A stretch of 64,000 nt of DNA, taken from positions 10,301,701 to 10,365,700 of the forward strand of contig OY855913.1 in the NCBI GenBank assembly GCA_963693305.1, read 5' to 3'. Under the pieces are notes generated by a model that was not told the origin of the DNA, made no database searches, and saw only the letters and a program-made list of their open reading frames with translations. Origin of the DNA: Meandrina meandrites (Eukaryota > Cnidaria > Anthozoa > Scleractinia > Meandrinidae). Each line of letters opens with the position of its first letter. Positions within the stretch are counted from its first letter, which is position 1. This document shows positions 1-59,028 of this stretch, piece by piece. The position numbers were made by a program, and so were the translations under genes.

Positions 1-1277
1 CACGACCAATAAAATTAAATTTATTGACCGATGGACTCAAAATTTCTTGACACATTAAGGTATGATCTTCACAGACTAGGCTTGGATTAATTTTTCCAAA
101 TGAATTTCGAGAATAAAGAATACTTCGGGCAGCAGGTATTTTGACGAAATTCTATGGAATTTTTTAGCAAAATGTCAGAATTCTGAAAAATGAGTAACAC
201 GAAAGATGTAGATTAAAAATTTTAACTGAGACAAGTTCAAAACTGATTAAAAACACCTTGTGATTCTAGAACATCATGCATTGCATGACATTAGCTCAAC
301 GCACTCAAGACCGCGCTCACAACGAGGGTAACATAATTTACTGAAAGCCCAGTAGTACAGTAGTACAGTGAAATGAATAAAGATCCCCACTTCACTGCAA
401 GTTTTCTTTAAACAATGAATGTCTAATTTCTCACTGAACCAGCAGAATTTGATCAGAATTCGAGCAAAATCTGGTCAGCTGCCCGAGCAGAATTTGAGCA
501 GAAAACGCGATATTACGGGTATTGCCGAATTCACCAATCCATCAATCACAATTATTTTTCAAGGCCTATCCAGACCACATTTTTTCCACAGGTGACCCCT
601 AGCATGAATGATATCTCTGGCTTATACTGAGTGGTTGACAGTTATGATCGGTCTCAGGTTCGGCCTGATAGCAGTTTGGTACATACATGACGAACTTAGC
701 CCTCGAAAAAAAATTATGCAAATTAGGCTAAGGGTTGACTGAGTCAACCCATGGCTTATCATTAACTGAAATAGAAGCTTATATTTCGCAAGATTAGCGC
801 GATCAAGGTGCTGCTTTAATTTCGTCGGTAACACCTTCTCAGGTTTATTGAATGACAAAGTACATGCTGAGCGAAACAAAATTCCCTCAACTGTGGCTTT
901 TTTTGACATCAAAAACATTTTCCAGACGCCTTGCCTCGCGAAGATTTCTGTTATTCGCGCGAGGTACTTTCGATCACGTTCGCCCTCGCGTGAATACGCC
1001 GCCAGCTGAACAAGAGTTAAAGAAGCAACGCATGATCTTCTTTTAAAAACAAATTTATTGTTCGAAATAGAAAATTTACACTGTAAGCTCGAAAGATTAA
1101 GTTCGCCTTCTCTAAATGAAAGGAATCAAGTCACAACAATAAGTTCAAACCGGAGATGCACAAAATTAAAAGCAACACGTACATTTTCACTCGAGAGTAA
1201 AGAGACTAAAGTCTTCAAGCAAATAAATTGTTGGCACAAGCAAATTCGTAGTAAGTCACTTTCAACAGTTCAACAGT
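1..1277. other. Non-coding stretch downstream of kinase-like gene
   Basis: I see no convincing gene here. The short open frames have no recognisable domain. Near 430-500 a degenerate motif of the type GAGCAGAATTTGA recurs a few times. A TTTATT at about 1054-1059 would read AATAAA on the minus strand and could serve as the poly(A) signal of the kinase-like gene that ends at 1278. Confidence 0.5.
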
Positions 1278-2246
1278 CTAAAGGGAAGCGCGCAGTTCCA
1301 TTAATGTGGGGCGTTTTGTCGGTTCTTCGCAACACGCTCTTCTTGCCGATTTAATTGATTCGGCTGTTGCGGTCGGTAAAATGTCCAGAACTTCCAATGC
1401 AATTTTTCCTAACGAAAAAATGTCTGATAAAACGCTCTGAGCGCCCTCGCCGCGAACAATTTCGGGAGCGATATGCGGGTACTTCATTCGATATTCCCGC
1501 TGTTTGTTCTCAGACAAAGACATCGGTGGTTTTGGGTCTGAAATCATCCGCGCTTTGCCAAAGTCGATGATGACAGGATTCCACTCCTCTTTTCGCTTTT
1601 CCAGCACAACGTTGTTGGCTTTGAGGTCGTTGTGTAGAATCCCACGCTTGTGGATGTGACCTAGCCCGTTGATGATGTCGCGAAGGATAGCCAGCCAACT
1701 GGGTTTTCCGAGTTCGGCTTTCTTTCGCACTGCGCTTGATAGGGTCAAGCTTCTATCCTTTTCTCCGTGAAACTGAGTGATTAGTCGCAAGGGCTCCTTT
1801 TTAGTTGACACGCCAAACAACAGTGGCAGGCACCGGTGGTCACCCAAATGGCTTATCATCTCAGCCTCGTGGAAAACTTCTTTACGGATGATTTTCGAAG
1901 TCATCTTTTCGCTGACTTTGAATTCCTTGACAGCGACCACGTATCCCCGATAGGTTCCCAGATAACACGAGCCAAATGTCCCTGAACCCAAGAATCTTCC
2001 TCTCACAACTTCTGTTGAACGAATTTCTTTCACGGCTGGGGGACGTGCTCTGCGGCTGTGCGGTTTTCCCGGTAATGGTACTGGTTTTGGGCCGTTTTCC
2101 ACTTCGTTGGGTGGCTCGGCAGCGTCAGCAGCATTCTTTAATGCTTTTTCGGTGGCCTTCTTGTTCCTCCACCTCCTCTTTGCTGTTTTTCGGATCGTTT
2201 TCATCGCATCCTTGTCGTTGATTCTCTTCCGTTTATTCCTGGCCAT
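1278..2246 (-). CDS. Protein-kinase-domain protein, single exon
   Basis: Uninterrupted 322-codon frame. The ATG at 2246 is preferred over the frame's extension to 2342 because the protein then begins with a basic segment (MARNKRKR...) and the extra 32 residues look like untranslated sequence. Residues 1-72 are basic and low in complexity. The kinase domain follows: glycine loop GSGTFG (87-92), beta-3 lysine K107 in VAVKEF, a helix-C glutamate (E127 or E129), catalytic loop HNDLKANN (205-212) with D207, DFG at 228-230 and APE at 260-262. HRD is altered to HND, but the catalytic Asp, Lys and DFG are present, so activity is plausible. The C-lobe is short and ends soon after the RPT motif (312-314). 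I cannot assign it to a named kinase family. The lack of introns, in a window where genes are finely split, hints at a retrocopy or a lineage-specific single-exon family. It is divergent with the zinc-finger gene at 2640. Confidence 0.82.
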   Translation of the reverse strand: MARNKRKRINDKDAMKTIRKTAKRRWRNKKATEKALKNAADAAEPPNEVENGPKPVPLPGKPHSRRARPPAVKEIRSTEVVRGRFLGSGTFGSCYLGTYRGYVVAVKEFKVSEKMTSKIIRKEVFHEAEMISHLGDHRCLPLLFGVSTKKEPLRLITQFHGEKDRSLTLSSAVRKKAELGKPSWLAILRDIINGLGHIHKRGILHNDLKANNVVLEKRKEEWNPVIIDFGKARMISDPKPPMSLSENKQREYRMKYPHIAPEIVRGEGAQSVLSDIFSLGKIALEVLDILPTATAESIKSARRACCEEPTKRPTLMELRASL

Positions 2247-2639
2247 TCCGGAACAGCAATGAAAATTATATACAGTAAAATGGAAAATATCAAAAGGGAA
2301 CTTCAGAAAACTATTTACAGAAAAATATGTACAGGGTATCAATGTGTTCGAGAAATATTTGGAGGGTTCTAAACGCTATGAAGCTGAATCAGTACTGTGA
2401 AGTAAGCACGTGTGCAGTTTTTGAGCTACGAACTTTACGGAAACGGCAATTCCAACAACAAAAGAAACCCCACGAGACAACAATTCCTTTTCGCGGTATT
2501 GACACTTCTTTTGGACTTGATTGGTCAATTCATGGCAAGTTTCCGGAAATCATTAACTATCTGGATCATGATTGGTCATTACTGGTCGTGATTCCCCACG
2601 AACGAAACGTAAGCTAAACAACATGCCTTTGTCTCAAAC
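2247..2639. promoter_or_regulatory. Shared upstream region between divergent genes
   Basis: The kinase-like gene starts leftward at 2246 and the zinc-finger gene starts rightward at 2640, so about 390 bp must hold both promoters. Two ATTGG boxes (inverted CCAAT) lie at 2520-2524 and 2571-2575, each inside GATTGGTCA, which suits NF-Y-type sites. No clear TATA box is seen. A bidirectional promoter is an inference from gene layout. Confidence 0.45.
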
Positions 2640-3743
2640 ATGGCAGTTTACAAAACGCGTTGCGACTTATGCGATTCCGTGTTTAGTACAACTACAGCTT
2701 TGTTACGACACAGAAAGACAAAACATCGCCTTGCGACCCAATTGGTAGCGTATTTGCCGTTTTATAATGGCCAGGAAGAAATACAGCTCCCCCCAAGAAA
2801 CAGGACTGGAAGAAGATCTTCAGACTATAAGAAGTGGATAACTGGTATAGTGGACAGCATCAACTCCTGTCTGCATCCCAAAGCCGCCGGTAGGATTTTT
2901 CTCTTTGTTTGCATGCCCAAATAAATTGTTAAGAGTGCTGTACTGCTTTGCGTGACAAATAACAGCAAATATAAATGAAATCAGAGCGTTTAACATCGTG
3001 ACTGCGGGACTACGGGAGCAGGAAATTAATGTCACGCAATCGTGGCCGGGTATTCTGAAGTCACTCCCGCTTGCCATGTAGCCATGTGCGTTCTATCGCC
3101 AAATTTTACACAAAAGCCAGCCTAAAGCGACCTTCTGCTACATGTAAGCTGAACTCAGTATGACAAGTTGAAATATACATTACAAGAGCTTTCAACTGCG
3201 GTAGGTCCACAAGGTGTTCTTTAAAAATGGCAATAAAAAAACGGTACCCTTAATTTGTTTTCAGGAAAATGGTGTCGTGTTGAAAGACACTTTGTGTCCA
3301 AAGATTTCTTACAAACAATACTCACGGACATGCCAAATGCATTCGTAAACAGTGTAAGAGAGAAGAGGCACTTCCGTCCTCCGGTATGGAGGGAAACATC
3401 CAAAGTTCTTCAATACAGAGACTTTGAAATAAACGACATTGATACCGCCTTTGGACAGCATAGTGCTGTACCATTAACATTCAAGAAGACCTACCTGGGA
3501 AACAAGGAGATAGCCAAGAGTGTCGTTCCACAAAATGCACGAGAAGCCCTTGAGGCCGCGAAAGAACGAGCACGAAGAAAGACCGCCAACGACTCTCCGA
3601 CAATGAAACTGGAAATTGTAGTTGGGCACGGTGATGGAAGAGCAACCCGGGAGTTTGAAGTAATCTGGTGGCCTGAACTTTTTTCCAACGCTACCCATGG
3701 AAAGTTAACACTCCGATTTTATGTGTCCAAAGTGCTGCTTTGA
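2640..3743 (+). CDS. Two-exon single C2H2 zinc-finger protein
   Basis: Exons 2640-2889 and 3265-3743 join in phase 1: the last G of exon 1 plus GA of exon 2 makes a glycine codon. Donor is GTAGGA, acceptor TTTTCAG. The product is about 242 aa. The ATG at 2640 sits in a good context (AACATGG). Residues 8-29 form one C2H2 finger with spacing C-x2-C-x12-H-x4-H (CDLC ... HRKTKH). The rest has no domain I recognise; it includes an R/K-rich segment and an EREAL-type charged helix, and ends in FYVSKVLL. A lone finger with a longer unknown domain could be a DNA- or RNA-binding protein or a fragment of a transposon-related family. AATAAA at 3890-3895 is a likely poly(A) signal. The splice join and finger are well supported; the function is not known. 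Confidence 0.7.
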
Positions 3744-3889
3744 TCAAGTCAGCTGTTTCCTTGTGATTGTAATATTCTTTATCTTGTTTTACCATGGCAA
3801 TCTTAAAGGGAACATACTATTAATAGTGTAAAAATTATTTAACAGGTTTGATGTCTTAAGTGAAATCGCCCGAAACTGCAAATTAAACT

Positions 3890-3895
3890 AATAAA
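3890..3895 (+). terminator. Poly(A) signal AATAAA of zinc-finger gene
   Basis: A canonical AATAAA about 150 nt after the stop codon at 3743. The following T-rich stretch at 3980-4000 fits a downstream element. Confidence 0.45.
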
Positions 3896-4075
3896 TTAAT
3901 TCAATAACAAATGTCTATAATGAACCACTCAGGCTACTCAAAAGAAAGTACTCACAAAAAATGTGAGTGAGTGTTTTACTTTCCTCTTTTTTTTTATATT
4001 TGCTATTCAATATTTGAAGCTATTCTGTTCCTATCTGATATTCCTGTAGTCAGTCAAATTTTGGGTTAAAAAATA

Positions 4076-4755
4076 GTCATTGAAAAAAAATGTTACTGTT
4101 CTACCTTCAGATAACAACAGCCCAAATTGGACTGACTACCCAAGAGAGACAAAACTGGGTAAAAAATATTCATTGAAAAAAATGTTACTGTTCTGCCTTC
4201 AGATAACAACAGTCCATATTGAACTGACTACCCAAGAGAGACAAAACTGGGTTAAAAAATATTCATTGAAAAAAATGTTACTGTTCTGCTTTCAGATAAC
4301 AACAGCCCAAATTGGACTGACTACCCAAGAGAGACAAAACTGGGTTAAAAAATATTCATTGAAAAAAATGTTACTGTTCTGCCTTCAGATAACAACAGCC
4401 CAAATTGGACTGACTACCCAAGAGAGACAAAACTGGGTTAAAAAATATTCATTGAGAAAAAAAAATGTTACTGAGAGAGACAAAACTGGGTTAAAAAATA
4501 TTCATTGAAAAAAAAATGTTACTGTTCTGCCTTCAGATAACAACAGTCCAAATTGAACTGACTACCCAAGAGAGACAAAACTGGGTTAAAAAATATTCAT
4601 TGAGAAAAAAAAAATGTTACTGTTCTGCCTTCAGATAACAACAGCCCAAATTGGACTGACTACCCAAGAGAGACAAAACTGGGTTAAAAAATATTCATTG
4701 AGAAAAAAAAAATGTTACTGTTCTGCCTTCAGATAACAACAGCCTTAAACTGAAC
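4076..4755. repeat. 93-bp minisatellite, array 1
   Basis: Tandem copies of a unit near 93 bp, about seven to eight copies. Successive CATTGA anchors lie at about 4171, 4264 and 4357, exactly 93 bp apart. Each unit has an A-run with ATGTTACTG, the segment TTCAGATAACAACAG, and the segment ACTACCCAAGAGAGACAAAA. One copy near 4465 lacks most of its middle, and copies differ mainly in A-run length. Because 93 is divisible by three, the array keeps a frame open for over 140 codons, but the product is a pure repeat with no domain. Confidence 0.95.
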
Positions 4756-5308
4756 TGACTTCAGGATAAGCTTCAAAGGATATAGCCACCGAATAGCAAA
4801 TACTTAAACGAGATGAAACATTGTCATTGTTCTTGTTTTCAAAATGTAACTTTTTGTCCAAGCTTATATTAGCTATACAAGATTCATTAATCAAGTTTTG
4901 TAAAGAAGTAAAAAAAGATATTTGTTTTTATATAAACAGTGTATACTTAACAGTGTTTTCTTGCCACTGTGCTCTTGACTAGGCAGTAACAGTCAAATAG
5001 GAAGGCAAGATTAGAATAAATTAACAACGCTAGCATTTTTAAAGCTCATCACAGTGTAATAAAGGTTATTTGGAAGACAAGTCCTTGTAGATGTTAAATT
5101 TGTTGTTAAATAAATTCATACAATAGAGAGGATGGTCCGTATTAGTCCGGTCTCTACCTTTCATCCAATTAAGTTCAGAAAAGTAAAACTAAGTAAAAAA
5201 AAAAACTGAGCTTTTTTCTGATGAAATTGTTCCAGGTCACTGAGACACACAAGCTACCTCACCACGACAAGGAACGGACCTTGAGGTAGAAAAGGGGTTA
5301 TGGTTAGA
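4756..5308. other. Unique spacer between the two minisatellite arrays
   Basis: About 550 bp of AT-rich sequence with no gene seen. It breaks one repeat family into two arrays on the same strand, so it is either an insertion or the original sequence between two expansions. Confidence 0.5.
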
Positions 5309-6052
5309 ATTCTGCCTTCAGATAACAACAGCCCAAATTGGACTGACTACCCAAGAGAGACAGACCTGAGTTAAGAAACATTATAAAAAGGAAAAAGATT
5401 AAACAAAATGTTACTGTTCTGCCTTCAGATAACAACAGCCCAAATTGGACTGACTACCCAAGAGAGACAAAACTGGGTTAAAAATATTCATTGAAAAAAA
5501 TGTTACTGTTCTGCCTTCAGATAACAACAGCCCAAATTGGACTGACTACCCAAGAGAGACAAAACTGGGTTAAAAATATTAATTGAAAAAAATGTTACTG
5601 TTCTGCCTTCAGATAACAACAGCCCAAAATGGACTGACTACCCAAGAGAGACAAAACTGGGTTAAAAAATATTCATTGAAAAAAAAAAATGTTACTGTTC
5701 TGCCTTCAGATAACAACAGCCCAAATTGGACTGACTACCCAAGAGAGACAAAACTGGGTTAAAAAATATTCATTGAAAAAAAAATGTTACTGTTCTGCCT
5801 TCAGATAACAACAGCCCAAATTGGACTGACTACCCAAGAGAGACAAAACTGGGTTAAAAAATATTCATTGAAAAAAAAATGTTACTGTTCTGCCTTCAGA
5901 TAACAACAGCCCAAATTGGACTGACTACCCAAGAGAGACAAAACTGGGTTAAAAAATATTCATTGAAAAAAAAATGTTACTGTTCTGCCTTCAGATAACA
6001 ACAGCCCAAATAATTTATTGGACTGACTACCCAAGAGAGACAAAACAGTCAT
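5309..6052. repeat. 93-bp minisatellite, array 2
   Basis: About eight copies of the same unit as array 1 in the same orientation, with spacing from about 90 to 97 bp because A-runs vary. Several neighbouring copies are near identical, which points to recent homogenisation. The last copy carries an extra 8 bp (AATTTATT) at about 6012-6019 and ends 20 bp from the stop codon of the minus-strand transposase/protease gene. The array therefore occupies that gene's 3' UTR and flank. Confidence 0.95.
6014..6019 (-). terminator. Poly(A) signal inside the last minisatellite copy
   Basis: TTTATT on the plus strand reads AATAAA on the minus strand, about 53 nt past the stop of the gene ending at 6072. 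It exists only because this copy has an 8-bp insertion that the other copies lack. Confidence 0.6.
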
Positions 6053-6071
6053 GACTTGAATGTTTAAAGTG

Positions 6072-9000
6072 TCAATTACTCCACTTTAGAATTTGCAACA
6101 TTAACTGCTTCCTGTGGAGATCCATATCAGAGTAACGCCACTGAAAATTGTTAACAGCCAATGGTCCATTTTCGATGAAATCTCTTGCAGCCATAATTAC
6201 ACCAATGCCACAGCTTCCAACACCAATCATTTTTGAATCAACTGGTGCTTGAGATGGCATACCAAAGCGTTTGAAAAGAGAGCAACTCTGCCAAAACCTT
6301 GTTTGAAGGGCTGGCTGGTATGTATACATCTCAAGGAGTAGGTCTAAACAGTGCTTTACAGAAGGAAGTGCAGTTGAAGGGACAGCTGATGTCAGTCCAT
6401 CATCAAAATACAACTCTTGATTTACCAGATCAATGAAGATTAGGCCCCAATGGTTTGGCATGTACACTGGCACCAATATTTGTTGAAGATCATTGACATC
6501 TGCCAACTGACATTCCACCCTTGCACTCAACTGAAGCTGTTGAAAGTTCTTGTCATTTGAGCTCATCCATTCATAAAAATCTGTAGGAAAGTACACTGTG
6601 GCGTTGGTTTCATTTACAGCAGAGACATCTAAAAATTTGCTAATGCAAGTGTCTAAAACAAAGCTGTCAATGTAACGTTCCTCAACCAGATCTGAAAATG
6701 AAGAGGGATCAATCCCCTTGTTTCCAGATCTCAATATTGGGATGGTAGCTGAATTATGCCAAAGAGCAGTTTCCACTTTGATACGGTCTCCAGGAGAGAA
6801 TTTCATCTGTGACAGCCATATATCTTCTGATGACACCTTTCGGTAAACTTCTCTTATCATGCAGAATCGCTTCAAAATTAACAGGGCTCTCTCTGAAAAC
6901 CCTCCCATTCCTGAAATTTCAATACCAGTAGGTTCCTTGCCAGCTTTTCTTTCCCCAGCAAGTAGCTCCAGAGCCCTCTGGATATCACCTTCACAAGGAC
7001 GTTCAGCTAAGGAGAAAGGGTCAGAGTTGGAAGGTTTTCCATACACTGCTTTCAGTGTAGAAGATGATCTACTCAAAGGTGGAATTTTGCTGTGCAGGGC
7101 AGCCATTTCACCTCTTGTTCTGGCCTTCATCATCGCTGCCTGCAGGGCAGTTTGTTGGGATTCTAAAACCCAGTCGCTGTCGTCTTCGATGACATGAACC
7201 TTTTGAGAAGAAGCACTCAACGTGGTGTCTGGTTTAGACTCTGAATAACAACGCTTTGGACATTTTGGTGGGGGGTGTTGTTTAGGCACTGGCTGTGTAG
7301 GTGCTGGCTTGACTTTGGGTGCTGGTTTTTGTGTAGACAATGGCTGATCTTTTGGTACTGGCTTTGGGGCAGGCACTGGCTGTTTCAAAGGTCCTGTTGG
7401 TTGCGATGCCACAGGGTCAGGCTGTAGTCTTGCTGACTCCATTATGTCAGAAATGAAACTGACCTCAGGGGAACAAAAATTTTCCATGGCCACATGTCCC
7501 TCTTTGCCCTTACCATACTGACTTTCCCAGTACTCATGACTATACTCCAACAAAGTTGATGTGACACTGTCATCTACCTTGGTGCCATGCTTGTTATCAT
7601 AATAGTACTTAAGGAAGTCACCACCAAACATTTGTTCAAAAAGATCTGCAACAACCAAAATCCAGGCTTTCTTCTCCTTTGTCCAGGATCTCACATCTAC
7701 GCCTTTCCAGTCAAACCCACGTAAGGTAAACTTGTTCTTCCCTATGATGAAAAATAATAAAACAATTTCAAGGTTACACTGACTTGTTCAGCAGTTAGGA
7801 ATATAACACACATAAATAATCAAAACGTCCTTGAAGTAACTGGTCATTTCCCCTGAAATTCGCCTTACCTGGAACCGTTTCACTCAAACTGAAAGTCGAT
7901 TTCGCCTGATGTTTTCTTAATGTAAATTTAAGAGCAGCTAGTGTATGTCTGGTTTATGTTTTTTTTGTGTGTGTATCTATCATTTAGCCTGGGTTGTAGA
8001 CAAACTTTACCTCATAAATTCTCACACACAGAGTAACACATATATGGTACATATATGGTATACATGAATTACAGTTTACACAACCTTTACACGAAACACA
8101 TTTTTAATCGATCAACTTACAAAGGCCAAGGCAATGAGAAAGCCAGCCTTAAAGAGTTCCCTTGCACTTATTTCTCCTGACACCATTAACTGCTTTCTAA
8201 ATCAAACTTGAGTGAGTACAGGATAATCGACTAGCCGTTTGGGCTAAGTGGCTCGGGGCAAAGGGGATTTAGGATGAAATTGAATGTAAACCGTCCTTGA
8301 CACTGCATCCCTACACTAGCAAGTTCTGCAGCATGCAACTAGCAATAGCAACTGAGCGACGGTGAGTTCTTACACAATAGCTATATAACTCAGTGATGTA
8401 AAATTACTAGCATGCTGGTTATACACGTGGAACCAGAGCATAAATAGAACACCAAGCAAGGTGAAGTAATAATACATAGGAACCGAAATACTACTGGACT
8501 TTAATCTGTGTGTAATACAAGGCTGCCTGAGTCCCAATATATAGGTTTGTGTTTTAGAAGAGCATCACCCCCTAAGGGCCCATGCTTCCCACCAATCAAA
8601 ACAGATACAAACATAATGAAATTATACACACCTGAAACAATGCACGCCCTAGCCTCATGAAATTGGTATCTTAGAGATAAAAGTACAGTTGTATACCAAT
8701 GGGTAAGGATTTGATTCACTGCAAGAAATAATTTTAAATACTTTTTAAATATCACAAGGCTTTCAAGTCTCAAATAACTGAATAATATTTTATACTTGAA
8801 TGACCATCAAGTTGACCTAAAGAGACTGGTAGCAAGACAGATATTTACCTCAAATTCATCAACTTTACTCAAAACTTGCAAGAAAAATATATATAATTAT
8901 ACTTACATGACTGTCCTGGACCAGAGGAATCGTGATTTGTTGCTCTTGAGTACAACTGGCGGTGTAACTTGTGGGAAGACTCAAATCCTTGGCCTGAATA

Positions 9001-12000
9001 TTTATAAAAAGATCGGAATTGCCGCAGAAGCATAGCACTGTGATCCACGACAAGGTGTCCATAATCCCCAGTGCCGAGATGGAGGCCAAATAACTTTTTT
9101 AGCAAAAATCCCCATTCTTTGCACTTCAAGAAAGAAAAAAAAACTATTACCCAGAGGGAATTATTTCTTTATTATCAATAAAAATAGACTGACTTTTTGG
9201 CTAATGAAATAGTCTGGTAAGCTGCAATTGTTTTGCTATAGGCACTGGGTAGGACATTAGCGCTCGCCCACTCGTCCAGGTGAGTGTCAAAACTGTCGGG
9301 CGAGTACAAATCACTGATCACTCAATTTTCAGCCCCAGAATATATTATTCAAAATAAGGGTGAAATTTTACTTTCCAATTTAAAATAGAGAGACCTTGAA
9401 AATGAATTTGGATATTTTTAATTATGTTTGTGGGCAGAGGTGGGGGGGGGGAGGTGTTTGTGTGGAGCTAGGAGACTGGGCAAGTGAAAAATTGTCTAGG
9501 GGAGTACAGCTTGAAAGTTACTCACCCAAATTGCGAGTGCTCCGAAAGTTTAGTTTCCAACCCTACTATAGGCTAAACCAACATACAGTTGTACCTATTT
9601 TTATTGCAGCATATTAACTGCGGCAGAAAGTCTGTATTTTTGCAGCCATACAAAGTTGCACTGGCATAGTTTAAAATGTTAAAAACTTATGCTGTAACAC
9701 ACATTAATTTCACCTTGACATCATGAATGTCGATCAGTTGTTCCTCACAGTCTTCAAACACTTTGTCACGCAATGTTAGGGCAATTTCCCTCCAGTCGCA
9801 GCAAACCTATGGCATGGAATATTAGTATTAAACATGCAGTTAATCAAAAGCTCATTCTGAGCATGTCAGTTATCTACACCAATACACTAGTCTCAAAATG
9901 ACTAAGAATGAAATTGTGTTTATTAATCAATATTGTTGATTGTCTCAAAAAACAAGGAAGTTAGCTATAAACATCAATAACTGTGGCATGTTTTTTTTTT
10001 TAAGCAGAAGTGCACCATTTGACTGCCAAATTAAATAATACATACATAGTTAAATACTTCATTGACATTATAGTAACCTTGCAGTTATTAAACATACCTT
10101 GGTAAAAAACTCAAGTTGAAGTTCTGCAGCATACTTTGCAAATGGATCCGAAACACTGTGTTTAATGTCTTTTTTACCCCTTTTTCGCTTTTTTGCTTTT
10201 GGCTCCTGAGCAACTGGAGGACTGTCATCAAGTTTCAAGAATCTGTCTTCCACTTCTTTTTGTTTATTTACCCAGTAATCCCTGAGATTTTCCAAGAACG
10301 ATTTTAGTTCTGAGGAGAAAAGAGGCTATTAAATAAAATTCAAATGTCCCTAATATGAACAAATATTATATTTTATGGCAATCCTTTCTTTGTTTAGTGA
10401 CTGCAGCATGATTATGCAGCATATCATTATTTTCTGCAATTGTCAGTGCTTTTATCAATTGTTATTTTGTTGTGTTAAACAAGTCATTTGTGCCGAGGTT
10501 TTGATAGTATTTTCATTTATTAGGTACTTTGTAGATGTGCACTCATTCCATTATGAAAATATCCAGACTTCCCAATTCACAAAGTTATTAGTCTAAATTA
10601 ACTCAGTCATTTATACAAATTTCATAATCATGTAGATATGGTACCTCTTGCATCTTCAAGATCAACAGTTTCTTGCCTGGTGCCATAATCTCTGATGAAA
10701 GTTCCCCCTTCAAGCATCTCATTTACAGCCTATAATATAGAAACACAATTATTTGAAGGGGCAGTATCATGGGGATTTCGACGCATGTGTGGTCACAACA
10801 GAGCTAAAATCATGACTAAATAGCTTCGCTCAGTCACAAGATGCGCCTAGAACACGAAGGTGAAAAAAATATTAAGTGACATGTTCAAAGGAGAGCACTT
10901 GGGCAGTTTGAAAACATCTGCCAGATGTTTTCAAATTTTTTTTATTGAAATCTCACACATGCATAATTTATGATAATACCTCTTTTGTTACTTTAGTGGA
11001 CTAATATAGTCATTTTTAACAAAGCTAAACCATTGTTATTAGGTTTCCATTGGTGAAAATATTTCTTTTGACTTTCACTTTTGTAAGTCATGCTTGCAAT
11101 ACTGCACCCCTGTAAGTGCTCTGCTGTATTCCCTTTATAATTGTTGTGGTTTAAATTTATCTTTGGTTTAAAAATTTTCAAACCAGTTTGATTTTTATTT
11201 CCCTTTGTTTCAGATTATGATAATGAATATGAGACAATGAAAAACCAAAATCAAACTGGTTTGAAAATTTTTAAACCAAAGATACATTTAAACCACAACA
11301 TAATCAAACTGATCATAATGATATATAGGAACAAAATCGTTAAATAAGTCTTTACAAACCTACCAATTTTCTTTCTTCAAGATATGTAACAAAGTTCAAA
11401 ATGACTTCTTTTCCAGCTCCAGTGCATTCCTCATAGTACTGGGTAACTTTTTCAATGGGCAGAGATCTTTTTACAATATCTTCAAAATTTTTCAGGATTT
11501 GTCTCTCAGTTGATCCTGTATAAAGAAATGATTCATTACACATGGACATTCCAAGTAACTAAAAAGGGTCATATTTCAAATAATCTTACCATTTCATGTA
11601 GTCATGCCCACATCAATCAACCAATTTTACTTGTATGATCAGTTGCCTCTCTCAAATGTCCCTCAGCTCTCACTCTCTCAGTCATCATAATTTCCTTTAT
11701 TTCATGGAGCCCTCCCCCATAAAACTGCCTATCCCTGTTGACTCCTTTTTGGAACAACAACAATATATTATAATGACCCCCTTTTACATCACTTTTAATT
11801 GATCAATAATGCTTTAATAAATGCCTTTACAGCTCATCATACCTGAAAAAGAGGCCACCTTGATGTTTTTTCTATCGATTTCTGTTTGCTGGCCTTTACG
11901 TTCCTTTATGGTAACACGTGGAAATCCTCTACAGTTTTCTGGCCCGTATTCAGACAAAGCTTCATTCAACTTGTCAAGGGTTCCCACACGATACGCAAAC

Positions 12001-15000
12001 AAACCCAGGGAGCCCAAGAGTTGCTCACAGTTTCGCATTTCGCAATGTAAGGAACAAAGGTTTATACTGGTCAAGTCTTCTTCCAACAGGAAATTAAGGT
12101 CATCCCGTATACCTGAACATCTAAACAAATACAAAATGAAGAATTAAGGCTCACTTAACATGCAATAACAATATTGGGTTGATATAAGCACCACACTGCA
12201 GGCAAGCAATGCAAGCTGCCTTTCTGATTAGCTTGGACAACACTTGGGTTAGGAATTTCTGGCTTGCATGGGTTGCTGCTTATATACCATTTTGAAACTG
12301 CTGAGCTAGAAAACACAAACACAGCTGCTAGGAATAAACAATATATGTTTCACACTTCTGAACATTCATAGTGTTGTGTTACCATGTTGCTAAGTGATGT
12401 AAGGCTATGTGTCTACTAAGTTGTGTTGAGCTTGCAGCTTCCAGTAAATGTACTGAAAACCAGTTTTTGATATTTGTATAAACCATTAACTTTTTAGCAT
12501 TGTTATGGCATTAAATACAAACCACAAAAGATCCCTACCTTCCAATGTTAGCTTTTGATCTTAAGCAGTCTAAACAAGTTTCATCTGGACCAGCACCATG
12601 AGTCGTGCAAGCCTAAAAAATAAATGTAATGCAAACATATGCATCACATTGTTACAAACCTTTGTCAATCACTATCGATCTTCCTTGACAAATGCATGCT
12701 CACTATTGGGTCTAATAGGTCTTTTCCAAACTTCTACTACTTTGCTAATGAGCAAATCTTAATGTCTCTGTACTACCACCCCGTACTACCCCCTGACATA
12801 CACACATATGAACAGAAGACAGTAGCACAACTTTGGAGCAAAAAATTACCACAAAGGGGAGGATGGGGAAAAGGCATTTAATCCAGGTTTAATGCATGAA
12901 TTAATTGTATCACAGGAATCGAAGGAGTGCATGAGCGAGTAAAGAAGTGACAAGTGAAGGAGTGATTTTGCATCCAACAATGTAGTAATAGTCATATATC
13001 AACACAGTCATAAAAACATTTTTATGACTGTGTTGATATATGACTATTACTAAGGCAGTATCTTTCAGTACAAAATTATGTGCCTTGCCTTTTTATGGCA
13101 ACTTATGTGCAACTTATAATTGATTGTAACAGTAATTTGTGAGTATTTATTAATGTTGGCCAATGCCAAGCCTCAACAAAATAAAATAATTTACCCTTAT
13201 TGCATCACAAAATGCGCAGCATTCCACTTCATACCCTTTCCCACCAAGACGGAAGTCCTCATCGTCTTCCTTACTGAGCAGAAGACACAGGGCTTTGTAA
13301 TCCACAGTAACTAAAAAAAAAATTAAGGAAGGAAATGATTGTTTTTAATCTTTAATAATTTAAAGTTTATGCGTAAACTAAACCAGCAAATGAAAAACAA
13401 TATTTATTGCACAATTACCACTAATTTTTACTAAAAGATTTGTCTGGTTCCTTGATAAAAGTGTTTTCAGTGTAGTAGCAAAATGTAAACTGTTAATTAA
13501 AACAAATTTAAGTTTGATTTGCAGCATTGGAGGAGTTTTGCATTTCTAGGAAAGTTTAGATATTTAGCACAAAGCATTAAAAATTGTACCTCCTTCATCA
13601 TGTTTTTGCTACTGCCCACGAAGTGATTACAAGCAAATTTGCTGTAGACAAGTAATCTGCATATGCTATAACTGTTTGTTTGACAATGATATTAAACAGC
13701 ATGTTCATTGTCAGCTGTACATACCTGTGAATGTAATGTTGTACTTCTTTCCATCAACAACAATTCCATGTTTCTTGATAACATTCTTTTGGCAATTAAG
13801 GTTTGACAATAACTGTTTCAGATTTGACCTTTTAAATGTAATAAACAAACATATACGTCAATCAGAAATCTAATAGATGGTAATGATGACAATAAGCTCT
13901 CCATACTGTGAGAGTGTAGTGTAGATTTCACACTGCATTGTATGACCACTTTGTCCATTACATCTTGCAATTGACTTGATACAAGTTACTCTGATATGTG
14001 ATCAAGTTTGATCAAAACATTGTTTACATTGAGTTAAATTAATCCTGACAAGGATAAAATTAAATACATTCAAAACATCTATTTAAATGTTGCACTGTTT
14101 CGGTGTTTGGTACATAATACTGATTTAAAGGGTTTGTTAAAACCTCACCTTTCCTCCTTACAATTTCCAATAGCAATTGGAAGGATTGATAATGCGCTTT
14201 CGGAACTCTTGTTAGCAAAACCGATAGGTGCAAGACCAACAGCTACTTGATCTTTACCTGAAGAAGTTAAAATAAAACAACATATGAATCAAAAGAAATA
14301 GGCTCACAGTAATTTAATTATGTCACTGGTTTTTAAATTAACAAAATACTGATAGTCATGCAAATACATGTTCTAACCAATGACTGATAACAGCAACATT
14401 TGGAGGTACCTGTTGTAATTATAAAATAACATTAATTTTTGTCATAACCTTTTTGCCTACCTCCAAGAGGACGTCCATCCAATTTTATATTGAACTCCAT
14501 GTTATCTGTGTCTTGTGAATAAAGGCGCTGTTCACGTATTGCCCATACAAGAACAGAACTGAGGTTTACATCCCAAGCTTCAAAATTTGCATCATTTATC
14601 TTCTGAATTCTTAATGTTTTCCTCACGATGGAAAAGATAAGCTTTTTCAGAGCAGTAATATCATTCTTGGTTAATAGCAATGGTGTGTCACCAGACCTCT
14701 AAAAAGAAAGGAGAAAAAAAACACCAAAAATATGGTAAGAGTTAAGGTCATTCCCCAGTATTGCATATGTTGGCAAGTCTCGATTTGTTAATTTTAATTT
14801 TGATTGGCTAAAAGGAAGTGCCAGTTTTTTCTACCAATCACAAAGCATACTTCTACAAAACCAAAGCAAATTACTAATTTTATTAATTACTTTTGCAACC
14901 CAAGTGAAAACCGCTGTATCCAAGAAGCAAGAGTAAAATAATTATTTTATAATCAACAACAACGGAATTGCAATATGGTTTTTGAGCTCCCCGGCTGTTC

Positions 15001-16756
15001 TCCAATGATGACGTGTTCCATATTTATGGTCCTTGGTATATACAAACAATAGCCTCCATTTGATGCGAAAATATGCATGGATATTTGTCTGTGGACATTA
15101 TCTTTTCCAAGAAGCGAACAGTTTTCCGAGAGCAAAGCTCAAGGAAAACTGTGAGCTTCATGGAACAGATAAATTCCAAGGACAAATATCCATGCAAATT
15201 TTTGAAACCAAATGGAGGCTATTGTTTTTATTATCCTTAAAATATTTTTTCACAAGGCTGCATTTTGGGAGACCTTTTCTCAAATTAATTCTGTTGGTGC
15301 TCAAAATATTATTAGTCTGTTCAAAATATTTAGTTCTATTAATTTTAACAATCTACTCAGGATAAAAGCTAACGTGCAAACGTTAATCGCAAAGTTCGAA
15401 AATATATCACTTGGGGATATCATCTGACATTCCCCAGTTTTGGCTGCATCATTTGACATGTTAAGACCAATTGCGTGCGCGCAAAATATTTGGTAGATTA
15501 TAAGAACTCACATCCCAAGGCCTGCAAACCAATTAAATGTGGAAATTGCAAATAACCTGGCTATTTTTTTAAAAAAATTAATGCATATCTTTATTATGCG
15601 TGACCTCTTCAGAACAGACACAAATGACACTTCTAACTAATTAAAAAATACTTTTGCTTTTATTTGGTTTTATGTAATGTTTAATTAAATTAATGACTTA
15701 AACTAAAGTAATTTTAAAAATGGGTTTGAAAGAATCACTTACCCCACTCTTTCCAAGTTGAGATAAATTCAGAAGTGTCTGCCATGCCTGGTCCGGAAGC
15801 TTTGCATGCAGCTTGAAGTATAGGAGAACCCATTCAGGAACTCTCATGCTTTGTAAGATCCTGGCGTGTGTTGGCGAGGAAAATAGATCAGAAAAGCCTC
15901 TCTTCCCCTTAGTTTCCATGACGATGTCAACGATCTCGGAAAGTGTATCTCTGACTTGATCTTGGTCATGTTGATCGCCAAAAATAAAACTGTTTCCGAG
16001 AACGCAACCAATTGATTCTTTATACTTCTCAGCAACGTCGCTCAGAGAAGCCATCACTTGTCTGCATTTCCTTTGCACTCTTTTCTTTTTTGTTGTTTTT
16101 CCAATGGTAGGACTGTTCTTCGTTTCATCGATGGAGCTGCAGGAAGAGGATGGCGAAGTTGATGGCGACGAAGAGCACGAGGATTCCTGCTCCGAACAGG
16201 ACGTCGAATCGAAACTTATCTCCATGTCACTCTCCAAATCGCTAATTTTAGCTTGGAGAGACTTAAGCTGCAGCTCAAGGGATTCAATTTTAGCTTTTCT
16301 GTTCTCGAGTTCAATGTTGAGAGCCGAACATTGGCTTGGGCAGAAGTTCCCGCCAGAACCAAGATCGACCTTGCATTTGTCTTCAGCCTCGACATCTAGG
16401 GCGACTGAGTTTAACTTCGTCACCACTGGCTCAAATACGGGTGAGCAAAGCAGACCACCTGATGGAATTTCTTTTCGACGCAGAAGGCCAGCACATAGTC
16501 CAAATGTGGAAGCCACGTACAGGGTACTTGGCATTCTGTTGAACTTCGCCGTGTACGATGATTTGGCGGGCAAAAGTTCCCGCGCAGAAACACTTCGGAT
16601 CTCGTCTGGAAATCTGCTAAATATGTCCCTCTTTGCGAAATCTGTAGGCCGCGCTCCACAGTTCTCCTTGGTAAGAATATACCAATTCTTTCGCGGGTCA
16701 AGTGATGGACTTGTGACCCTCCAAAGATTGGAACCTTGAAAGGGCAAGGCTGCCAT
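6072..16756 (-). CDS. 14-exon RNase-H-like transposase core fused to Ulp1/C48 protease
   Basis: Exons, 5' to 3': 16756-15743, 14698-14461, 14257-14149, 13828-13725, 13310-13195, 12612-12539, 12120-11843, 11515-11364, 10729-10645, 10309-10098, 9806-9714, 9123-8907, 8718-8632, 7741-6072. All introns are GT-AG and all phases match, giving 1482 residues without a stop. Residues 145-178 are a likely coiled coil, 182-209 are Ser-rich and 222-226 are basic (KKKR). Candidate acidic catalytic residues are D412 (IKLDGRPLGG), E579 (SLHCEMRNCE) and E873 (GQGFESSHKLHRQLY). Between the first two lie paired cysteines C520/C523 (CAFC) and C540/C543 (CLDC). A Pro-rich linker (1042-1087) leads to a C48 domain with H1357 (NHW), D1374 (FDDG) and C1437 (GSCGIGV); the usual oxyanion Gln is not obvious. 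This suggests a DNA transposon gene or a domesticated derivative. The fold call rests on motifs. Whether all 14 exons form one transcript is inferred, though exon 13 strengthens the link by joining both sides in phase. Confidence 0.8.
11143..11299. mobile_element. Hairpin MITE, copy 1 (GTTGTGGTTTAAA family)
   Basis: Two arms of about 50 bp are inverted around a short A/T-rich centre, from TTGTGGTTTAAA to TTTAAACCACAA. It lies in the intron between the exons at 11515-11364 and 10729-10645 of the transposase/protease gene. A relative with the same arm order lies at 43991-44127. Confidence 0.75.
12983..13052. repeat. Near-perfect 70-bp palindrome
   Basis: The arm TAGTAATAGTCATATATCAA with its following bases is repeated exactly in inverse after a 2-4 base turn at AAACATTT. 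Arms are about 34 bp. It lies in an intron of the transposase/protease gene and could extrude as a cruciform or be a very short foldback element. Confidence 0.85.
15049..15224. mobile_element. Foldback element in intron 1
   Basis: Imperfect arms start CAATAGCCTCCATTTG and end CAAATGGAGGCTATTG, with matching inner blocks such as GGATATTTGTC against GACAAATATCC. The centre is around 15135. It lies in the first intron of the transposase/protease gene and has no coding capacity. Confidence 0.7.
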
Positions 16757-19680
16757 CTTTGGTTCTTCTTTCTCGATCTCGTCGAGTCCGGCGCTTCAAA
16801 TGGCTTACACATCAAATGCATCATGATTTAACAATTTGAAAATCCCGCCTCAGTAGAATATTACCTTGATCGTAAAATTTTAACTTTTAAAAACAGCTTT
16901 TAAACAAGTACGTACGTCCGACATCGAGCTGTACACAAACGTACACGATCTGCTGACGTGACAGCTAATAACAATGTAAACAATGGCTCCGAGTAGAGCC
17001 TCGCGTTTTGGAAGGCCCTGGGAACAAGGGAACGTTATTATCGGACTTATCGGCGTTGCGCGCCTTTTGTGTAGACAAGATCGGTTTTTTATTACCCGTA
17101 GAAGCTCCCGTTTGCTTCGTTTTTGGAAAGATGAAGTAAGGATCAAATGTTTTAATCTTGGCAGTCATTATTAGTATCTTAACAGCCTTTCGGGGTCGCA
17201 AAGTAAAAAGGCTCGCGCGATCGAAAGCGAATCCACGCGTGTGATCTGGATATCTGTTTTATTTGATACTTGTCTCCCGAAAGCCGAGCTAATTGATGTC
17301 TGTCGCCTTCAGTGGACACATTCCTCTAGCATCTTACAGCTCCTGCGGCGAATTTTTTTCGAGGCCTAAGTTCGTCATGATTGGGCTGATTTGCTTAGTG
17401 TATATTTGAAACTACAGAGTAATTCGTGCAGCTTTTTCTTCTGCCATGAAATTGACATTTTTACTAAAGAAAGGAAAACTATTCGGCTGTTAAAATTAAG
17501 CATGCAATTGTTTGTTATTCTCATGAAACACAGCTTAACTGAATATAAAAATTAGAACACATTATGTAATATAACTTGGAGTTTTAAAGCTTTAATTTGT
17601 TCATGAGAAACAAAGAATATTAGTTAAGTGGAGAGCAGGCACGTAACTGATATAATAATAGATCTAAAAACATTTTCACTGCTTGAGAGCTTTAGAATTC
17701 TTGAAAACTAAGACTTTGAGAGGGTTTTCTCTTAGCCCTAGGCAAGAAGAAAAAAGGCAGAAGTCACGGTTTGGCTGACAAATTTAAACAATTGTTTAGT
17801 ACTCTCATTAAACAAAACTTAAGAATAATAAAATCAGCCGCAATCATAGTGCAGTTTCAATTTATTTATGACAAACACAGAATATTACACAAAATTAAGC
17901 GAAGAACTGATATAAGAACTAGTATTACTTTTTGCGGACCGGGACAGCTTTGGAATAATTGAAAAAGCAGTGAACGTTGTCAAGACATTAAAAGAGTTTT
18001 TGCATTGCCCTAGGCAAAAAGGAAAATATCTGAAGTCAAGGTTTCCATGCACTCATCAATGGAAATGTTATCAACAAACGATGGAAAGACAACAATTTTT
18101 GCAGTTTTGGAACTTTACTTCAACACTTTTATTTAGACAAAAAGAAAGCAAATTCGCTCATTCCTTTAGTATTATACCTAAACTAATATATATGGAAATT
18201 TCACACGTTGGTCGCCTTCGTAATTCTTGCGAGGGCAGTGGCCGTTGTCAAGGATGTCCTCACGCTAAATCAAAAGCATGCGCAGAAGTCACCACTCATC
18301 AATCACCGTACTCAATATGTCATCGGTAACCAACAGAAAGAGCAGATTTCAACGTTTTCTACGCCCATAATAGGTTTTTTAACGCCATCTCTTTTTTAGT
18401 CAAGCTGTATGTTTGCCACGCTGCGACAGGTAGGATTAATTTAAAATTAAGGTGCTAGTTTTTCCAGTTTGTCCTCTTTCAACTCAAATAGCAGCTACAA
18501 TTTAAAAGCCAATCTTTGATTCCTATGTACTTATTTTCTGCAGGTTTTCATCGCTTGAGTTAAGACGTCACCTTGTCCATCTGCAGTGAATGTTGACACA
18601 TTTTCTTCACGAATATTCAAGGTAGGCAGGTGGAAATCAAGGATTTCAGTTCTACCGACTTAGAAAGACAGCCTCTAGCGGTTCAACTAAGATTTGAAAT
18701 TTCAGTTCTTGGTGAACATTTTATGCTACTATAGATTTCTGCTTTAAGTTGGTTGCTGTGAGTATAAGATACGTAGATTTTGTACGTACTGGAAGTGCTT
18801 ATTTTGAAATGTGCAGCTAATGGTATGGCGAACCTCCAGTGTTGTCTGTCGGAGCTATGTTTTTTAATTGATAACTTACTTTAGTATACGTTTATTTTTT
18901 AGTTGAATCATGGACACCAAGTTTCGCCTGTGCATATTCAATAATGGTGAATGGTGAACTGCTTAAATTCAGAAAAATTCCGACGATATAAGCCCTGGCT
19001 TATATTTGTTTATTTTGAAGGTTTTTTGTGGTCTTGCTTGCGGCATGGTGGTGGAGGCTCGGGTGATTATTATTCGGTCCAAACCAAGGCGAGCAAGAAT
19101 TTCCAAGTGCATTTACCGTGGGAAAGAATCCCTCATATATAAACACTTGACTGAATAACCAACACAACCTAAACTTCGATACTTCCCGTGTGAGCTTAAC
19201 CTTGAATAACCTTAGACTATAAACTTGAGTAACCAAGAAGGACTACATTTCCAAAGCACTAACCCAAACATGTCCACAAATGAAGAATATCAAACCGAGC
19301 CAAGGGCTCTTGAATAACTAAGATGAACAACCTTGAGGCTCTGGGCGAGCTTTCGGGCGCTCAAATCACAAGACTTTCACGATAGCTACAAAATTACAAA
19401 CAACTAGTCAAGAAGAAAAACTACTCTACATCTATTCTAAAAATAATATCGCGCTCCATAACAATAATAACAGTACTTTACGTCGACGTAACTTGACACT
19501 TCAATGTTGAACAGACATGGGCACCTAATGATCTGTTGTTTCTCCTTTAAGCATCGATGCATTGTCAAGCCGACAGATTTGATGATCAGAAAATATTAAA
19601 AACGCAACTGGATGTTAACATTAAAATATGGTAGTCAAAATCTATATTGAATATTTCCAGCTTTGTCTTGTTTCTTTCAG
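16757..19680. other. Intergenic region, 5' of transposase/protease gene and tachylectin
   Basis: About 2.9 kb with only short open frames and no domain. It should hold the promoter of the minus-strand gene that starts at 16756, and perhaps the 5' exon (signal peptide) of the tachylectin gene, which I could not find. No terminal inverted repeat matching sequence near 3.7-6.1 kb was seen by eye. Confidence 0.4.
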
Positions 19681-20460
19681 CTGCTCTACCCCAATTTGCC
19701 AGAATCTGTTGTTTGGAGTGACTACAACTGATGGTAAGTTCTACACGAGAACCTTCCCCCAGTATGCTAGCGACAACTGGCTTGGGCATGCCACAGAAAT
19801 AGGAGCAGAAGGTTGGAACGACTTCAAGTTTCTGTTCTTCCACCCAGACGGTACCTTATATGGAGTACTGAATGACAAGTTCTATAAAGGGTCACCGCCT
19901 GATGGTGAATCTGCTAAGGATTGGGTCGCAAAAGCCACGATTGTCGGAATGCTGGATGGAATGGCTTCCAGTTCCTGTTCTTCGGTCCTGAAGGAATGCT
20001 CTATGGCGTTTACAACGACAGGTTTTACAAGAGGAAGCCGCCAGCATACGGCAGTGACAACTGGCTAGGATCCGCCACACTGGTGGGGTCAGGTGGATGG
20101 TCCGTCTTCCAATTCCTTTTCTTCGATCCAGAAGGAATCTTATACGGCGTCGAAAAAGGCAAGTTTCAAAAGAGAAGCCCTCCCACAGCTGCAAATGACA
20201 AGTGGCTTGGATCATCCACGCTCATTGGTACTGGAGGCTGGGACGGTTTTCAGTTCCTTTTCTTCATGAAGGATGCTCAACTGTATGGGGTCAACGATGG
20301 CAAGTTCTACAAGCGATCTCCTCCAACTCATGGAAGTGATGATTGGTTGGGCTCCGCGGAGATGATTGGTTCAGGTGGCTGGAAGGTGTTCAAATTTCTC
20401 ATAACTCCCCTTAAGGACGTTCGCGCTAATTGTTTATGCGCATCCTTACTGCGCACGTAA
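19681..20460 (+). pseudogene. Tachylectin-2-like beta-propeller lectin, frameshifted
   Basis: The exon starts after the acceptor TTTCTTTCAG (ending 19680) with CS-T-PICQNLLFGV. Five repeats of about 47 residues follow, each of the form LYGV...KFYKRSPP...DNWLGSAT.IG.GGW..FQFLFF. This is the five-bladed propeller of tachylectin-2, a secreted lectin that binds N-acetylated sugars and acts in innate immunity. In repeat 2, around 19947-19950, one A appears to be missing (GTCGGAATGCTGG, where the repeats predict GGAAAT), so the frame shifts between blades 2 and 3. Restoring it mentally gives all five blades. The ancestral end is FKFLITPLK followed by TGA, but a TTAA element now sits in the last codons and the frame runs 14 residues into it, stopping at 20460. 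It is a pseudogene, or an intact allele with an assembly error at an A-run. An upstream signal-peptide exon is expected but not located. Confidence 0.88.
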
Positions 20461-57973: not shown

Positions 57974-59028
57974 CTATTGATTGTTGGTTGGGACAGTAGA
58001 ACTCTCTTCACCGTCCACATCCAGCGAATCGCAACTACCACCATCTCTGTTTAGCTCAGACCCTTTTTCGTCGCTCATCCTTCCCTCGGCTTTGTTCTCG
58101 TCTTCCATTCCTTTCTGAATTGCTTTTCTCGCAGCATCCTTACAGGACTCCCAGAATGTCTTCAGAGCACCATTCTTGTCGGAACAGAAGTCCTCCAGTT
58201 CACCCCTCAGTGTGTTAGCCGCTTCACTGTCACCAGTGGCTGCGGACCGCCATCGTTTGGTCAACATGTAATTATGCATCCAGTAAAAGCCCCAGGGCAC
58301 GCCAATCGTGAACGCGTCTTCCTCTTCGTCCAAGTTTGAGATTCGCACAAAGGCGACACCGCTCGTGTGCACGTAGTCGTTCGCACGACACTGCACGGGC
58401 GTCACTTGCACCATCGGCGAGCTCACGTGCATCGAGCCATACGGCGAATCCCGGACGAAACCAAACCTTAACAAAAATAAACCAAAGAACAAGGGTGAAC
58501 ATTCTTTGGTAAGTTGCCCTCATTCTTATTGCCCTTTAAGAAATAAAGTTCCTCCCGGTATATCTTCTTGACGGATATAGGCAAAAAAGGTAAAAAGGTA
58601 AAGGTAAAGCAACTTTATTTATACACGGTTTGTGTTTAAAGCTAGAAGCTTGTGGGGCCGTGTATATGAAACAAATATTAAATAAACATAACATGATTAA
58701 AAATCCCAACTGGCAGGAGGCAGACCAGTTGGCTATTTACAAGCATGACCGAGGATTTGAACTCGGGACAACCGAGAACAAATTCAGATAGTGGTCAGAA
58801 CGGGACTTGAACCCGGGACCTCCGGATTTCAAGTCCGGCGCTCTAACCACTTGGCCATGCTGCCTCCAGGCGTGAATCACAAGTGAGATTTAGTTGAAAG
58901 TAGCGGAAGGCGGGAGGTGCTTCTAGACTTACTTCAAGTCGAAAGGGCTTTTAGAAAGTTTAAGGTGCTTCCTAGAGAGCCAGTCAAATATTCCGAGGTC
59001 GAACACTGTCACCGTTGTGCTCTGTGTC
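57974..59028 (-). CDS. 3' part of unrecognised gene (two exons)
   Basis: Exon A is 59028-58933 (or starts at 59021) and exon B 58466-57974. Exon A ends AA and exon B starts G, making lysine, so phase 2 matches; donor GTAAGT, acceptor TTTGTTAAG. The joined protein reads TVTVFDLGIFDWLSRKHLKL then FGFVRDSPYGSMHVSSPMVQ, AFVRISNLDEEEDAFTIGVP and WGFYWMHNYMLTKRW, and ends with a charged helix and an acidic Ser-rich tail (STVPTNNQ stop). It looks like a folded beta-rich domain followed by a flexible tail, but I do not recognise it. The 5' exons are missing: CAG repeats lie directly upstream. The candidate exon at 62463-62631 may belong to it, although the phases do not join directly. Confidence 0.55.
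58588..58867 (-). mobile_element. tRNA-headed SINE of a second family
   Basis: On the minus strand: GGAGGCAGCATGGCCAAGTG, A box TGGCCAAGTGGTTAG, an anticodon-like arm CCGGACTTGAAATCCGG, B box GGGTTCAAGTCCC, then a body with GAGTTCAAATCCTCGG and CCAACTGGTCTGCC, and a tail of TTTACC repeats. The head resembles a Ser-type tRNA (TGA) but the acceptor ends do not pair, so it is a SINE and not a tRNA gene. It lies in the intron between exons A and B of the unrecognised gene. Confidence 0.82.

Follow-up and report, generated by a model that had tools for sequence, protein, structure and literature searches.

A multicopy three-gene DNA transposon carrying a transposase and Ulp1-type protease in one split gene in Meandrina meandrites

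We analyzed a 64,000-nucleotide stretch of the Meandrina meandrites genome (GenBank assembly GCA_963693305.1, contig OY855913.1, positions 10,301,701 to 10,365,700, forward strand), referred to as the window and numbered from its first letter. The window belongs to contig C11 of a 551 Mb assembly in 56 contigs, and other copies are named by their contigs (C5, C7, C6 and so on). The gene at 6072-16756 encodes the transposase of a multicopy DNA transposon, bounded by terminal inverted repeats (TIRs), with three genes in all. As a whole, the element is best explained as an autonomous cut-and-paste transposon with RAG1/CMCT-type D-D-E cutting, a C48 protease domain, a kinase, and insertion without target-site duplication (TSD), a reading that we regard as probable. 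The initial annotation had described the split gene alone; this part stands, whereas the true unit is larger, reaching from 686 to 17379 with TIRs, boundaries and two further genes. Its main features are listed here.

686..17379, unstranded: whole element, 16,694 bp; limits set by comparison with the C5, C7 and C6 copies
686..712, + strand: kinase-side TIR, 27 bp, CATGACGAACTTAGCCCTCGAAAAAAA
17353..17379, - strand: transposase-side TIR, 27 bp
6072..16756, - strand: transposase-C48 gene, 14 exons, 1482 amino acids
16756-15743, 14698-14461, 14257-14149, 13828-13725, 13310-13195, 12612-12539, 12120-11843, - strand: exons 1-7 of this gene
11515-11364, 10729-10645, 10309-10098, 9806-9714, 9123-8907, 8718-8632, 7741-6072, - strand: exons 8-14 of this gene

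Boundaries, copies and gene structure

The two TIRs are identical at 26 of 27 bases, and the termini read CATGACG...CGTCATG, that is, CA..TG. Beyond this common 27-bp repeat the ends diverge, with ATGCAAATTAG on the kinase side and a CGCCGCAGGAG-like sequence on the transposase side. A count of genomic copies, proposed along with the initial annotation, returned, besides divergent relatives, one closely related copy on each of four contigs (C11, C5, C7 and C6). The C5 alignment spans exactly 686 to 17379 of the window. The C7 alignment is exact at 17379 and extends 4 bases further out at 686 through chance agreement of the flanks, and the C6 alignment starts 1 base after 686 and stops 3 bases before 17379, its last bases being altered.

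Allowing up to 3 mismatches, the TIR pattern occurs at 195 places in the genome (99 forward, 96 reverse), and the reversed-pattern control at none. Eight matches are exact. Seven of them are ends of the four close copies, whose eighth end differs from the pattern by 2 mismatches; the other is an end at C6:27600598, examined by itself. The 100 of the 195 places that were listed include some facing end pairs about 0.4-8.4 kb apart, too short for full elements. Ends were examined in three relatives, and two of them are delimited by the same type of TIR and share the layout of the window element, namely C1:30843324-30859416 (16,093 bp) and C8:10892049-10908976 (16,928 bp), with at most 2 substitutions in the 16 TIR bases sought; C2:21.58M is the other.

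Rebuilding the gene model from the sequence gave 13 of 13 GT-AG introns and 4449 nucleotides, corresponding to 1482 codons plus a stop. The C5 and C7 copies match the window in all exon lengths, keep AG/GT at each intron and are free of internal stops, so that the annotated 14-exon structure is retained in both, with all 13 introns and the frame. Between copies, mismatches amount to 0.97% in exons and 1.57-1.60% in introns, where 72-92 bases are deleted. The C6 copy is rearranged: exons 3-11 and 13 have no match, and of exons 2 and 14 only a part is matched. In the relative at C8:10.89M, exons 2-13 follow in order at 54-92% identity each (exon 1 lies outside the stretch), adjoined by the protease exon at 51% and 54% identity. 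Two of the twelve exons 2-13 (6 and 10) had no match in the stretch taken at C2:21.58M, and five of twelve (2, 3, 4, 6 and 13) had none in that taken at C4:23.11M. This comparative evidence indicates that the protease exon is part of the gene.

Several introns of the transposase gene contain hairpins, at 12983-13052 (34-nt perfect arms) and 15059-15211 (75-nt arms, 80% matched), and one with 75-nt arms in intron 8 (11142-11300). The C5 and C7 alignments skip from 11141 to 11300, and the intron 8 hairpin therefore looks like a later insertion in the window copy.

The ratio of nonsynonymous to synonymous change (dN/dS) of the transposase is 0.35 both for C11 versus C5 and for C11 versus C7; the C11-C5 comparisons rest on 43 nucleotide differences for the transposase, 12 for the kinase and 5 for the zinc-finger gene. 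Synonymous divergence (dS) between the C5 and C7 transposases is only 0.002, indicating recent copying, as the initial annotation had supposed in speaking of recent activity. The small number of changes tempers the case for constraint: the C5-C7 transposases differ by 6 changes at a ratio of 0.56, and the comparisons with fewer changes give 0.56-0.58 or contain no synonymous change. Also proposed at the outset was a domesticated gene, in which the transposase-protease fusion would be retained at a single locus to serve the host. A host-like 14-exon structure and a dN/dS below 1 would agree with domestication, yet four contigs each carry a close copy of the element, with ends that agree exactly in three copies and to within 1-3 bp in C6, two of these copies are nearly identical at synonymous sites, and the TIRs are common to many other places in the genome. 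Because the gene lies in a multicopy TIR-bounded element, we reject domestication, to which we give almost no weight, and retain a real, recently copied three-gene transposon, possibly of a new lineage; placing it in a little-studied transposon group was right.

Protease domain and transposase core

The two parts of the encoded protein that bear on its assignment are as follows.

6072..6866, - strand: predicted C48/Ulp1 protease domain; H1357, D1373/D1374, Q1424, C1437
8632..14698, - strand: putative RAG1/CMCT-like core, exons 2-13; candidate D412, D492 and E873; C520/C523; LHCEMRN from 576; H848/H853; H904

The initial annotation placed a transposase-like core and a C48 domain in one gene model, and both were recovered, the protease through its relatives and the core through motifs and pairwise comparison. 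A profile of five family members matched SENP1 with E=5.7e-15 over positions 35-263 of 266, and the catalytic H-D-Q-C set (H139, D155/D156, Q206 and C219 of alignment A3) is invariant in all five rows. Two of the five members match PF02902; relative L005 matches the Pfam C48 family at E=1.6e-4, above the cut-off, and the window protease sequence alone has no Pfam match. In the C2/C3/C8:12.40M subfamily, exon 14 matches only over about its first 90 residues and C48 was not detected, which tells against a protease throughout the family. By profile and residue comparison, the C-terminus of exon 14 is confirmed as a predicted C48/Ulp1 protease domain. Towards the N-terminus, sub-threshold Pfam matches suggest a coiled coil at about residues 145-178.

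Two other loci, L021 (G000:C1:44527001-44532200) and L022 (G000:C9:18446001-18452000), contain intronless open reading frames (ORFs) of 1478 and 1668 amino acids with a Pfam chromodomain. Their C-terminal regions are 28% and 25% identical to the window protease and have the same catalytic residues, with a different-looking upstream part; scanned whole, the two ORFs gave no Pfam C48 match. Judged from these alignments, the two loci apparently belong to another transposon group equipped with such a protease.

The core contains a candidate D-D-E set, D412, D492 and E873. E873 lies 20 residues after H853, which is the H(4)H-to-E spacing of RAG1. The mouse RAG1 stretch compared shows CxxC, LHCDIGN, H(4)H, E 20 residues later, and HHW; the core and RAG1 both show LHC[DE]xxN, and MAFFT lines the core motifs up with those of mouse RAG1. 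Across the family alignment, C520/C523 is present in all four rows covering the site, and H(4)H in four of five. We considered LHCEMRN as the site of the second catalytic aspartate and dropped it: counting along RAG1 puts D708 before C(2)C, which makes D492 the candidate (D600 and D708 being residues of mouse RAG1).

In local alignments of the window core with the 311-residue RAG1 stretch, the best match was the H-H-E region with a score of 55, attained by 4 and 7 of 1000 shuffles in two runs. The H-H-E region alone, chosen afterwards, was matched by none of 5000 shuffles, and the N-terminal and exon-14 parts by 947 and 419 of 1000. From alignment A1, five of the eight rows were used (those of at least 150 amino acids), and 7, 16, 0, 18 and 21 of 1000 shuffles reached their scores. 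The C2:21.58M relative aligned with RAG1 768-992 at a score of 82, reached by 0 of 1000 shuffles, and by BLASTP at E=6e-5 in a single comparison.

A number of observations weigh against a RAG1 relationship. RAG1 was picked for comparison because of a resemblance in motifs. MAFFT sets RAG1 D708 opposite E516 instead of D492, so that D492 is the least certain of the three candidates, and the stretch compared does not reach D600. In one of five rows H(4)H lacks its first H, and a decayed exon-12 copy, L083, has R in place of E. Taken alone, the D492-C(2)C-LHC stretch is not significant against RAG1 (560 of 5000 shuffles). Aligning the family profile to RAG1 with hhalign gave P=0.053 and a probability of 1%. 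A Pfam scan of the window protein and the eight rows of A1 found neither RAG1 (PF12940, for which the mouse RAG1 stretch as positive control gave E=2.6e-195) nor any transposase family, and PDB-wide searches with the core brought no match, to RAG1 or otherwise. Apart from the RAG1 question, a search of 5.8 billion proteins for relatives gave 7668 candidates, none at E<=0.001, and viral contigs and prokaryote genome contigs yielded no relatives in searches that reach close relatives only.

The core could instead derive from another DDE superfamily, its RAG1-like motifs being convergent or a general zinc-clamp pattern. The lack of database-wide similarity, the weak hhalign result, the unaligned second aspartate and insertion without the TSD of the CMCT clade would all fit such an origin. 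It explains less readily that the last part of the core follows RAG1 in order and spacing, from H(4)H over 20 residues to E and HW, that LHC[DE]xxN and CA..TG termini are present, and that the C2:21.58M relative aligns with RAG1 as no shuffle does. We therefore consider another superfamily unlikely, if a serious competitor. The case for an RNase-H-like core comes from its motifs and from pairwise comparison; homology of the core to the RAG1/CMCT branch appears likely on these grounds, not proven.

Insertion sites and accessory genes

Sixteen end pairs were collected for the TSD test, and two were dropped for having the same flanks as a third pair, leaving 14; the C6 copy, with its altered ends, and L043, with the flanks of L042, were not entered. 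None of the 14 insertions has a TSD of 3 bp or more. A 2-bp flank match occurs in one of 14, as expected by chance (5 of 182 with partners swapped). For one insertion, the monomers of a surrounding 32-bp satellite serve as the empty site: there is no duplication, 2 bp are missing at the junction, and the monomer at the junction reads GCATAATAATGACTG, without CATG. The element thus seems to insert without TSD. KDZ elements (Zisupton, Dileera, Kyakuja), for which an excerpt of PMC12730594 gives TSDs of 7-8 bp, were considered and set aside, with 0 of 14 insertions duplicated at either 7 or 8 bp.

The palindrome CATG at both ends could itself be a 4-bp TSD, which would make the insertion ordinary. 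Most ends seen do read CATG...CATG, but the sole insertion with a known empty site carries the CATG-free GCATAATAATGACTG at its junction; this one satellite site disfavors the CATG duplication, and we judge it very improbable.

A short element with the TIRs of the transposon lies inside the 32-bp satellite at two neighboring loci, L042 and L043 (G000:C5, near 39441250 and 39444890), flanked identically at both, as though it had been duplicated along with the satellite.

Besides the transposase gene, the element contains the following.

1278..2246, - strand: protein kinase gene, 322 amino acids; Pkinase E=3.7e-28
2640..3743 (exons 2640-2889 and 3265-3743), + strand: C2H2 zinc-finger gene, 242 amino acids; GT-AG intron
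4062..6046 (4062-4760 and about 5310-6046), unstranded: 93-95 bp minisatellite arrays between the accessory genes and the transposase, also inside the C5, C7 and C6 copies

The kinase protein carries VAVK, HND, DFG and APE motifs, and its nearest solved chains are the EGFR, LIMK1, Src-family and B-raf kinase domains. Its frame is open in the C5, C7 and C6 copies, with a dN/dS of 0.15 for C11 versus C5, and the gene occupies the same place in divergent relatives. A kinase search at E<=1e-30 gave 14 matches, with identities as low as 35%. They fall into 12 loci, each of which has a transposase-core or exon-14 match as well. The zinc-finger protein matches zf-C2H2_6 at E=3.9e-4, under the Pfam gathering score. 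Its frame is open in C5 and C6, and in C7 with one extra codon; besides the four close copies, a copy at C1:43.11M has the gene (83% over residues 83-193), and its dN/dS for C11 versus C5 is 0.19.

Both genes might be passengers outside the transposition system, gene capture by DNA transposons being common. Seven of 18 core loci lack a kinase at E<=1e-30 (11 have one), the two kinase changes between C11 and C6 both alter amino acids, and the zinc-finger ratio comes from only 5 changes; these points speak against a kinase and zinc finger integral to the system, as does a zinc-finger gene seen only in close copies and one 82% copy. The seven kinase-less loci may be fragments, however, and a passenger would hardly account for a kinase whose 12 loci are all transposase-family loci or for its low dN/dS. 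We accordingly think it rather improbable that the two genes are passengers, and keep them as parts of the three-gene transposon.

Elsewhere in the window, ORFs at 19625-20460 (+ strand) contain repeated GW..FQFLFF...LYGV units, which resemble tectonin-type lectin repeats, and a tRNA match over the Rfam gathering score lies at 58792-58864 (- strand).

Proposed mechanism and comparison with known transposons

We hypothesize that the transposase would bind and pair both ends, which are alike over 27 bp and then differ, and would cut by means of a RAG1/CMCT-type D-D-E site, with a zinc clamp holding it in place. The cut ends would be joined to target DNA with no lasting stagger. The C48 domain may strip SUMO, or a modifier akin to it, off host chromatin or repair factors or off the transposase that carries it. 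The kinase may tune host repair or the transposase, and a role as DNA-binding helper or regulator is conceivable for the small zinc-finger protein. Open frames are observed for the protease and kinase; that they regulate the transposase or the chromatin and repair state of the host is probable, with these targets being inferred, as is any link between DNA cutting and SUMO control.

More tentatively, and against our own expectation on balance, the element could represent a new animal DNA transposon superfamily in the RAG1/CMCT branch, with TSD-less insertion, asymmetric ends and its own modifier switchboard of a transposase-fused SUMO protease and a dedicated kinase kept across divergent subfamilies. 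RAG signals have a heptamer-12-nonamer layout. The ends of the element can be read as the 7-base CATGACG, a 12-base spacer, and G plus an A-run of about 9 bases, which by analogy may echo that layout, a bolder extension of the superfamily proposal. TSD-less insertion, if true, would be unusual for the RAG1/CMCT branch and would bear on DNA joining by RAG-like enzymes. Several groups of transposons carry Ulp1/C48 domains. What deSUMOylation and phosphorylation do in transposition becomes testable here, with a C48 domain on a RAG1/CMCT-like transposase, open recent copies, and a kinase kept in divergent relatives.

Our literature search, which did not extend to Repbase, where the element may be named, found no description of this element or gene combination. 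The comparisons that follow draw on excerpts of the cited sources. The CMCT clade has C(2)C and H(3-4)H between the second D and E, mostly CA..TG termini, and a TSD of 2-5 bp (PMC12730594). With RAG1/Transib/CMCT (EnSpm-CACTA, Mirage, Chapaev, Transib, Plavaka, ESTA, Lanisha), the element shares C(2)C, H(3-4)H and CA..TG termini, and with mouse RAG1 it shares LHC[DE], H(4)H, E at +20 and HW. It differs in having no 2-5 bp TSD, no Pfam RAG1 match, a C-terminal C48 domain and a kinase gene. Despite the common motifs and termini, we do not file it as a CMCT member, because the 2-5 bp TSD is absent.

Plant CACTA-ULP elements end in CACTA. In the source excerpt they are CMC-type transposons with an Ulp1 domain, as in this element, and include Cactavine-2, -3, -4, -5 and -13 and rice proteins with Tnp2 and ULP1 (PMC2528002). 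The element differs in its animal host and lack of a Pfam Tnp2 match, and the excerpt mentions no kinase for CACTA-ULP. Ginger1, found mostly in Hydra, likewise has a transposase with a C-terminal Ulp1 domain and up to 4 introns (PMC2836005), but it has a Gypsy-integrase-like core, a length of 2.6-7.1 kb and TIRs of 44-270 bp; a Pfam scan of the window protein at E<=5 found no integrase domain. Ulp1 domains also occur on Mutator-like elements (PMC2836005, PMC13317346), where those of the MULE/Kaonashi (Vandal) type lie in VANC-type KIU genes (PMC13317346), and on oomycete Cryptons (PMC3212892); the Pfam scan of the window protein gave no MULE match.

IS3EU transposons of fungi resemble the element in pairing a transposase with a kinase gene (PMC12730594), there an alpha-kinase and here one of Pkinase type, in another superfamily. 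The TSD-less insertion can be set beside that of another group. Spy transposons of the PHIS group reportedly also lack a TSD, and are said to differ in being short and in having a Harbinger-like core. The transposase-Ulp1 fusion of the initial annotation is thus present here but not unprecedented, being known before in Ginger1, Mutator-like and CACTA-ULP elements according to these excerpts; the kinase gene and TSD-less insertion are the unusual parts.

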